Source of the DNA: Labilibacter sediminis
Lineage (GTDB): Bacteria; Bacteroidota; Bacteroidia; Bacteroidales; Marinilabiliaceae
Assembly (NCBI RefSeq): GCF_005877885.1
Contig: NZ_VCHY01000002.1
Location: 1-64,000 of the forward strand
Direction: 5' to 3'
DNA: 64,000 nucleotides
Position numbers and translations under genes: made by a program. Below are positions 51,307-52,420 of the stretch, in pieces. The notes under the pieces were generated by a model. That model did not search any database. It was not told the DNA's origin and saw only the letters and a list, made by a program, of their open reading frames with translations. Positions within the stretch are counted from its first letter, which is position 1. Each line of letters begins with the position of its first letter.

Positions 51307-51532
51307 AAAAAATGTTTTAACAGAATTAAATTACCAAAACCCGTCTTTTTATTTTTCAAATAAAAATATTCCCCAGCGCAATTACATTTTACGCAGATAA
51401 AAAGATTTTGTTATAACTATTAATGAATACATCTGTAACTCTTACTTCAAAAAAAACAGAATGTATAATTTAAGAAAAACTTTTTAGTATCGAAGAGATT
51501 ATAACTGAAGTATGAAAAAATATCCTTAAAAG

Positions 51533-51596
51533 AAAATACCGAGAAACATCCTGACTCCAAAGTCACAGACATTCTCGGTATCAATCAACACAACAC
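51533..51596 (-). ncRNA. hairpin repeat copy 1 (possible small RNA)
   Basis: On the minus strand: GTGTTGTGTTGATTGATACCGAGAA, a hairpin, TTCTCGGTATTTTCTTTT. The outer stem ATACCGAGA/TCTCGGTAT is shared with the other copies, but the loop differs (GACTTTGGAGTC, no CCCC). No clear promoter lies directly before it. The opposite orientation is possible: on the plus strand the conserved linker is followed by a hairpin (AACCTTT/AAAGGTT, 51612-51647) and a T-run. The 51307-51532 stretch before it shows nothing recognisable. Confidence 0.45.
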
Positions 51597-51666
51597 ATTT
51601 TTAATAAGGTTAACCTTTATGCATTACAAGCATCAACTACAAAGGTTTTTATTTTTTTGTAAAATT

Positions 51667-51752
51667 GAAAAAATACCGAGAGTTACTTCTATTTTGTGGG
51701 GACAAAGTTTATTGTAACTCCCGGTATCAATCAACACAACACTTCTTTTAGG
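51667..51752 (-). ncRNA. hairpin repeat copy 2 with promoter and terminator (likely small RNA)
   Basis: A perfect promoter stands directly in front, so a transcript of about 85 nt is expected: a short 5' end, the conserved GTGTTGTGTTGATTG, then a long hairpin (TACCGGGAGTTAC ... GTAACTCTCGGTA) whose loop holds TGTCCCCAC, and a T-run (TTTTTT) at its end. Promoter, hairpin and T-run together make an independent small RNA likely. There is no ORF. The C-rich loop could be a pairing site. Confidence 0.6.
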
Positions 51753-51756
51753 CTGT

Positions 51757-51788
51757 CAAAAATATTCACTATTAAATATTTAAACAAA
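51757..51788 (-). promoter_or_regulatory. promoter of repeat copy 2
   Basis: Minus strand TTTG (51788-51785), 20-bp spacer, TATTTTTG (51764-51757): a full match to the Bacteroidota consensus. It lies inside an inverted repeat (GGCTGTCA at 51751-51758 with TGACAGCT at 51798-51805), which might be an operator or the terminator of an upstream RNA. Confidence 0.65.
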
Positions 51789-51830
51789 AACATAAACTGA
51801 CAGCTTTATATTTTATTAGTTGTGTTTTTG

Positions 51831-51898
51831 AAAATATACCGGAAGTTACTCAAGTGGGGACAAGATATGTAACTCCCGGTATTGATCAACACAACACT
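51831..51898 (-). ncRNA. hairpin repeat copy 3, in the 3' UTR of the STAS gene
   Basis: On the minus strand: GTGTTGTGTTGATCAATACCGGGAGTTAC, loop with TGTCCCCAC, GTAACTTCCGGTATATTTTC. It begins five bases after the STAS stop codon, so it can be the gene's terminator or a 3'-derived small RNA. Loop and stem match copy 2 closely. Confidence 0.55.
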
Positions 51899-51903
51899 AT
51901 TTT

Positions 51904-52248
51904 TTATGCCATTAATAAGTTTTCGGAAAACGGTTTAGGTCTATCGCAAAAGAAAAACAAGTGATCTACATTAGCAGATTTAAATGATTTATACACCTTA
52001 TCTTTTACATTAAACAAACTCACCTGCCCCTTATTCATCTCCGACAATCGTTGCCCTGCCATCAGAGCATCAATTGTATCTGAATCAATTTCTTTTACCT
52101 CATTGAAATCGACAATTATATTTGAAAAGGGATTAGTTAATTTTTTGATCAGTTCATTTTTAAACTGAAAAGAATGTGCCTTACTTAATCTGGCACATTT
52201 ATCAAACGATACCAGAATGGTATTGCTATAGGTTTTTATTTTAATCAT
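51904..52248 (-). CDS. STAS-domain protein (anti-sigma factor antagonist-like)
   Basis: The ATG at 52248 gives 114 residues, nearly all one STAS domain; upstream codons to 52302 are possible but add nothing conserved. FSNIIVDFNEVKEIDSDTIDALMAGQ is the family's central block, with a Ser next to Asp at the usual phosphorylation site (IDSD). Such proteins switch partner kinases or sigma regulators. No partner kinase is adjacent. Its 3' UTR carries repeat copy 3. Confidence 0.72.
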   Translation of the reverse strand: MIKIKTYSNTILVSFDKCARLSKAHSFQFKNELIKKLTNPFSNIIVDFNEVKEIDSDTIDALMAGQRLSEMNKGQVSLFNVKDKVYKSFKSANVDHLFFFCDRPKPFSENLLMA

Positions 52249-52420
52249 AACTCGTGTGTTTGTGTTTCGCAAAACCCTTTTCCAAAGCATATGCCAAAAC
52301 AAAACACCTATTGACTATCAGGCACTTACAAAATATACCGCTTGTAAACTTCTTATTATTTGGAATTTTGTCCATATTTTGGAAGCTTTAAGGGCATTTA
52401 ATTTAAAAACGACAAAACAA

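Follow-up and report, generated by a model that had tools for sequence, protein, structure and literature searches.

A tandem array of three small hairpin units directly behind a STAS-domain gene of Labilibacter sediminis, taken together with its conserved complements at two other loci, suggests an RNA control circuit of an undescribed type in marine Bacteroidota. The pairing seed, its start-codon target and a decoy are predicted from sequence alone and are conserved in relatives, array and target being present or missing together, and the complete small RNA-target-decoy circuit becomes directly testable in the Labilibacter genus. To our knowledge, most of what is established about regulation by base-pairing RNAs in this phylum comes from gut Bacteroides; a literature search on Labilibacter combined with 'small RNA' found no paper.

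Hairpin units behind a STAS gene

The window, a stretch of 64,000 nucleotides of the L. sediminis genome (G000 in the comparisons below), contains three units of 68-77 nt on the minus strand, the nearest of which begins 5 bases past the stop codon of the STAS gene (Table 1). The units are numbered u1, u2 and u3 in the presumed direction of transcription and correspond to copies 3, 2 and 1, respectively, of the first-pass annotation. Each is laid out as GTGTTGTGTTGAT, a hairpin with ATACCG/CGGTAT ends and a T-rich tail. The word common to the units had been given as 14 bases long; it is present in all three, but its length is 13 because the 14th base differs (T, T, C). The hairpin ends were recovered in 3/3 units, and the minus-strand folds (-20.7 to -22.5 kcal/mol) are equalled by only 0-1 of 200 shuffles per unit. 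Plus-strand folds are also better than most shuffles (0-5 of 200 are as good), so that fold energy by itself cannot assign the strand. Other elements of the original description stand as well: a loop with TGTCCCCAC is common to copies 2 and 3 and missing from copy 1, a T-run follows the minus-strand hairpin (6-7 T among the last 9 bases of the window's units), and the spacers hold inverted repeats, one of them listed in Table 1 and the other being AACCTTT/AAAGGTT. The last unit, u3, is probably a seed plus terminator.

Table 1. Features of the array locus, in coordinates of the window
Feature	Position	Strand	Remarks
u3 (copy 1)	51530..51597	-	last unit, U-rich tail, loop not conserved; 60.0 bits
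u2 (copy 2)	51667..51743	-	5' segment GUGUUGUGUUGAU, loop UUGUCCCCAC; 75.9 bits; fold -22.5 kcal/mol, equalled by 0/200 shuffles
Spacer inverted repeat AGGCTGTCA / TGACAGCTT	51750..51806	.	9-pair stem when the + strand is folded
Candidate -7 element TATTTTTG	51757..51764	-	ahead of u2; read by eye
Candidate -33 element TTTTTG	51785-51790	-	ahead of u2; read by eye
u1 (copy 3)	51830..51898	-	5' segment GUGUUGUGUUGAU, stem, loop UUGUCCCCAC; covariance model 78.8 bits (u1 is within the model's training set); homologous unit in 7/9 genus genomes
STAS-domain gene, 114 aa	51904..52248	-	Pfam PF01740, E 1.2e-5; ATG at 52248
CA-rich STAS leader	52249..52267	-	ACACAAACAC before the ATG, invariant in 7/7
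sigma54-like promoter TGGCAT-N5-TTGG	52282..52296	-	-24/-12 spacing fits; GC of -12 not canonical
Upstream dyad TTCCAAAATATGGACAAAATTCCAA, candidate activator site	52360..52384	-	TCCA-N5-TGGA, then TTCCA, in 7/7

A promoter had been assigned to copy 2, and the candidate -7 element ahead of it does fit the Bacteroidota -7 motif, TAnnTTTG; its counterparts are TACCTTTG in G004, TACATTTG in G005 and one-mismatch forms in the other four genomes that carry the array. The STAS leader has a sigma54-like promoter that fits the -24/-12 spacing. The core TGGCA-N6-TTG is invariant in 7/7 STAS leaders, rpoN is present in 9/9 genomes of the genus, and the ATG start and leader of the STAS gene are conserved in 7 genomes, the alternative TTG start of the open reading frame list (52302) lying upstream of the conserved promoter-like element. 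To judge by its position 5 bases past the stop codon, u1 probably belongs to the STAS 3' UTR and is not a gene in its own right. Autoregulation via pairing with the STAS leader was considered and rejected: at -11.3 kcal/mol the duplex is unremarkable, and 12% of 654 gene starts match or exceed it. Among 295 genomes of the order, 11 have a STAS match at E <= 1e-8, the nine outside the genus at E 6e-11 or poorer.

Conservation of the array within the genus

The covariance-model search of relatives that the first-pass annotation had called for located 22 full units in 7/9 genus genomes (tolerant model R1), in one array of 3 or 4 units each. All seven arrays lie directly behind the STAS gene, which is present in exactly these genomes, and neither array nor STAS gene was found in the other two (G001, G002); nine related genomes represent few independent events. 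The recurrence of such arrays at one location in six genomes besides the window's own is far beyond chance. In a DNA search of 61 genomes (the window's own and 60 relatives) 21 matched at E <= 0.01. The top seven, at 2.8e-14 or better, comprise the window's genome and six of its eight congeners; all others, at E 1.8e-5 or weaker and mostly from other genera, were not counted as arrays. No array was found outside the genus among 71 genomes of the family (the nine of the genus included) with model R2 under stricter filters, the next match having E 0.0017. A pattern scan of a public genome contig collection returned 9 loci, 4 of them with arrays totalling 13 units, in Plebeiobacterium sediminum, P. 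marinum, Labilibacter marinus Y11 and a Saccharicrinis MAG. These add names rather than carriers because by coordinates they are the same records as G008, G003, G005 and G006, respectively. Each of the other 5 loci has a lone match, scoring 19-30 bits, and one of these falls within a gene that by eye resembles a hydrolase; a viral scan with a 15-base pattern gave 45 stretches.

The 5' segment GTGTTGTGTTGA is identical in 22/22 units of the seven genomes, an identity that is partly by construction because the word TGTTGTGTTGA served to collect the units; model R1, which is more tolerant, added none. The loop core TGTCCC (UGUCCC in RNA) is identical in 15/15 non-terminal units amid variable flanks (alignment A2), and the longer loop TTGTCCCC (RNA UUGUCCCC) is exact in 13 of these 15. 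The last units differ in the same way in 7/7 arrays, where the UGUCCCC loop is missing and the 5' segment retained; they have 6-8 T among their last 9 bases, and other units 2-8. Two arrays have peculiarities of their own. That of G005 (L057, the L. marinus Y11 contig) has 4 units rather than 3, and its STAS-proximal stem is strongly re-paired (GCCAGGGG/CCCCTGGC); in G007 (L059) the array is followed by an opposite-strand gene resembling a tRNA synthetase, in place of the universal stress protein gene (read by eye).

RNA character and strand

Across the 22 units 8 of the 14 stem pairs have changed on both sides, a number reached by 2 of 500 shuffles and compared with 0-3 in controls with the partner strand slid; likewise, 91.9% of stem cells pair, versus 37-49% with the partner slid. 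The count of further pair types was not above that of shuffles (344/500 shuffles). In the minus-strand reading the stem cells include 22 G-U and 3 U-G, i.e. 25, versus 3 A-C or C-A. The minus strand is the likelier RNA because these 25 cells would be mismatches on the plus strand, and the opposite strand, which had initially been left possible, is now disfavoured by the asymmetry. A conserved, covarying helix, as expected of a structured, trans-acting base-pairing small RNA, was found, and the putative single-stranded seed has conserved trans complements in 7/7 gene1 starts and in the 8/8 partner loci found (see below).

Compensatory changes and the strand asymmetry of the G-U cells support a minus-strand small-RNA family with a conserved single-stranded 5' segment, and the original reading of the array as a small-RNA family largely holds as a prediction. 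So does the remark that no named class fits. Rfam 15 gave best scores of 13.8-26.1 bits versus cut-offs of 35-70 for the array region and loci L007, L203, L056 and L335; the array and the partner RNA described below are two predicted RNA families without an Rfam match. Of the two features that had been highlighted, the 5' segment and the C-rich loop, both are conserved; function probably centres on the 5' segment, whose trans complements are conserved, and not on the loop. The target prediction proposed for the loop yielded nothing convincing: its best duplex with 654 gene starts of G000, the one genome searched, was -17.3 kcal/mol.

A surface-protein start codon as candidate target

Away from the STAS locus no full unit was found in the nine genus genomes with model R1. 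The 7 off-array matches at E <= 1e-3 are three starts of a gene here called gene1, two in a partner locus, one in an rpoD leader of G002 and one in an intergenic region of G003; the gene1 and partner matches fall on the complementary strand. In G000 the gene1 product has 1,656 aa; its start resembles a signal peptide (by eye), and it combines PKD repeats with a CHU_C type IX sorting domain. The NCBIfam T9SS model remained below its cut-off. The gene is present in 7/9 genomes, exactly the array's seven; because only its first 110 aa served as the query, a remote homologue may have been overlooked in G001 or G002.

The GTG (GUG) start of gene1 lies inside CGGTGATCAATCAACACAACAC (the form of G004 and G006), a stretch found in all seven genomes with small changes. 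Measured against a perfect complement of the u2/u3 5' segment, the site has one extra G, in the start codon itself. The codons for Q, H and N within the site are identical in 7/7 genomes (3/3 columns), versus 8/57 other two-fold columns over the first 430 codons. Duplexes of gene1 with each genome's own u2 range from -21.9 to -33.6 kcal/mol; in tests with 300 shuffles 5/7 beat all, that of G008 was reached by 1 and that of G005 by 6. The gene1 duplex of G000 (-21.6 kcal/mol) is stronger than those of all 654 gene starts examined there (best -17.4), which are crude ORF calls from two other contigs, covering 844 kb of a total of 6.36 Mb. Overall, array duplexes with gene1 and partner come to -22 to -38 kcal/mol versus a random-window mean of -11.5. 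The complement is CA-rich and of low complexity; even after shuffling, partner and target regions have means of -14 to -19 kcal/mol.

Wider sets of targets were also considered. With one mismatch allowed, the target motif occurs at 56 off-array sites versus 32 for a reversed-pattern control, and a sense start codon (ATG, GTG or TTG) lies between -10 and +80 at 18/56 sites versus 5/30 controls by hand count (2 controls that overlapped with target sites being excluded), 7 of the 18 being gene1. This control is contaminated and weakly informative because it shares the core CAACACAAC; it even matched the partner locus of G004. A general anti-leader role, with many CA-rich leaders as targets, was rejected, the 654 G000 starts not being enriched in comparison with antisense or coding stretches. 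The same applies to rpoD, since a 14-base complement occurs in G002 leaders only and in 0/7 other genomes with an rpoD match; G006 has no rpoD match at E <= 1e-30. In G002 two near-identical rpoD contigs, L237 (C41) and L241 (C89), agree at 97% over 287 aa and have CA-rich leaders with an exact or one-mismatch seed complement, and the rpoD leader of G007 retains a stretch that is CA-rich and similar in part. Possible private targets are exact 12-base complements of the seed that occur in single genomes, in intergenic regions or leaders: L163 (G003:C98:50797), L154 (G005:C51:51083) and L173 (G003:C187:102143, outside the motif-site set).

A putative partner RNA beside a sigma54 activator gene

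The second conserved complement lies ahead of the gene for a response regulator, whose sigma54-activation domain matches PF00158 at E 2e-61 in G000. The partner unit was found in 8/9 genus genomes, G001 being outside the loci compared, at L007:1300-1640 (G000:C219), L238, L335, L255, L345, L135, L203 and L340. The locus has a TGGCAY element and a small ORF of ~50 aa, of which the G002 copy has no Pfam or NCBIfam match; the -12 elements of the TGGCAY candidates, here and at the STAS gene, are not canonical. Three conserved structures follow: a hairpin of GGTATC, a CA-rich loop and GATACC (the last pair missing in 2/8), a second hairpin with 32 invariant nt (TTACCATATATAGTTAAATGTAGTTCTAGGCT), and a stem that resembles a terminator and has a T run.

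In the 8/8 loci found, the CA hairpin holds CGGTATCAATCAACACAACAC or a near form, a 20-21-nt complement of the array 5' segment and first stem bases. The partner duplexes reach -27.4 to -34.8 kcal/mol, versus a mean of -11.5 and a minimum of -25.0 in 6000 random windows; 7/8 beat all of 300 shuffles and that of G008 was reached by 1. The site nearly equals the gene1 start site, which is the reason for the idea that the partner may be a target mimic. Array, gene1 and partner are unlinked, lying at about 3.74, 0.25 and 4.53 Mb, respectively, on one contig of G004.

The history of the three parts is told mainly by G002, which groups with G007 in the rpoD tree (100/99) and with G006/G007 in the regulator tree (100/99). 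This genome has the partner, but neither the array nor the STAS gene nor gene1 was found in it; the simplest reading is a joint loss of the array locus and gene1, which fits a functional link between them. The G002 partner contains a perfect 20-nt complement though no array was found there, and the partner hairpin may therefore have another role.

Alternative explanations

The rival with most in its favour holds that the array is mainly a multi-site sponge, i.e. that the 3' UTR copies soak up an acting small RNA encoded beside the sigma54 activator gene. It would account for 3-4 copies of one pairing site at a single locus, and u2 indeed pairs more strongly with the partner than with gene1 in 5/7 array genomes (about equally in G006, more weakly in G004). 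It leaves unexplained, however, the near-identical site at the gene1 start and the finding of gene1 only alongside the array, and partner and gene1 share the same sense at the site, so that they cannot pair mutually through it; the sponge is an unlikely explanation. Still less probable is that the units are protein-binding hairpins, serving as decoys because an RNA-binding protein recognises their UGUCCC loop, and that the complementarity to gene1 and partner is secondary. The constancy of the loop in all 15 non-terminal units despite variable flanks would suit such a protein, as would the lack of a convincing RNA partner for the loop; against it stand the last units, which keep the 5' segment without the loop (7/7), and trans complements that are conserved and specific.

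Hairpins with U-rich tails right behind a stop codon could also be ordinary terminators or processing hairpins of the STAS 3' UTR, devoid of trans function. Neither a conserved loop nor an identical 12-nt single-stranded segment in each tandem copy is needed for that purpose, and we regard this as very improbable. A mobile repeat in decay, resembling REP or MITE elements, or a set of recombination sites would share the short, imperfect tandem palindromes of the array, and this explanation is barely credible: all 22 full units of the nine genomes lie at one STAS locus, which argues against a mobile repeat, the next R1 match having E 2.5e-5, and the genome-wide dispersal expected of such elements was not found. 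In addition, the stems covary, and among the ORFs of 46-57 kb no recombinase or transposase was recognised by eye.

A proposed RNA circuit and its relatives

The conservation, covariation, strand preference, conserved complementarity and shared presence found here are compatible with a circuit in which transcription, repression, the decoy role and the direction of control would be as follows. The array would give rise to tandem sibling small RNAs from the minus strand. Whereas u1 would be the 3' UTR of a STAS mRNA seemingly driven by sigma54, u2 and u3 probably have their own promoter. The single-stranded 5' segment GUGUUGUGUUGAU (UGAUACCG) would serve as base-pairing seed and bind the gene1 mRNA in trans, covering its GUG start codon, which would block translation. 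That tandem sibling small RNAs pair with gene1 as their target is the better-founded half of this proposal, and we consider it somewhat probable. The partner RNA would be the 3' part of the transcript of the ~50-aa small ORF beside the NtrC-type sigma54 activator gene and most likely serves as a target-mimic decoy, titrating the array RNA, if it is not a second target; for the decoy role as such the balance is about even. The whole, three unlinked parts comprising a small-RNA array in a sigma54-driven STAS 3' UTR, the GUG start of a giant surface protein at which the seed is aimed and, in the 3' UTR of a small-ORF mRNA, a decoy that mimics the target, where the activator beside the decoy may switch both RNAs, is put forward tentatively, with the chances slightly against it.

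By published descriptions rather than by sequence, the array may work like the multicopy small RNAs FopS and LhrC. FopS/GibS of Bacteroides thetaiotaomicron are described as paralogous small RNAs, ~65-70 nt in length, whose conserved 5' seed binds close to the start codon of a surface-protein mRNA; the same account gives 14 copies of FopS with one member derived from a 3' UTR, sigmaABfr promoters, many susC targets and antagonism by the protein RbpB (PMC11697453). On that description FopS is the nearest system in phylum and mode, sharing with the array the Bacteroidota host, paralogous small RNAs, the 5' seed and a start-codon-proximal surface-protein target. The array differs in being one tandem locus behind a STAS gene, apparently with a single main target, and in being accompanied by an RNA that contains a target-like site; FopS-like paralogues at many loci were not found, the 22 units being confined to single arrays. 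Neither GUGUU nor UGUUG occurs in the main text of the FopS paper.

LhrC1-5 of Listeria monocytogenes, reported as a multicopy small RNA with redundant sites, one of them a C-rich (UCCC) loop, that blocks translation of an adhesin (PMC4132741), appears nearest in its multicopy design and surface adhesin target. In the published account, however, the C-rich motif of LhrC is itself the pairing region and binds a G-rich site ahead of the start codon, while here the complements belong to the GU-rich 5' segment. The nearest decoy is probably InvS, a 3'-derived RNA that is reported to pair with the small RNA PinT and to lift target repression (PMC12721325). Compared with the system described there, the decoy of the present circuit is proposed from conserved complementarity alone, lies beside a sigma54 activator gene and would mimic the start site of the target.
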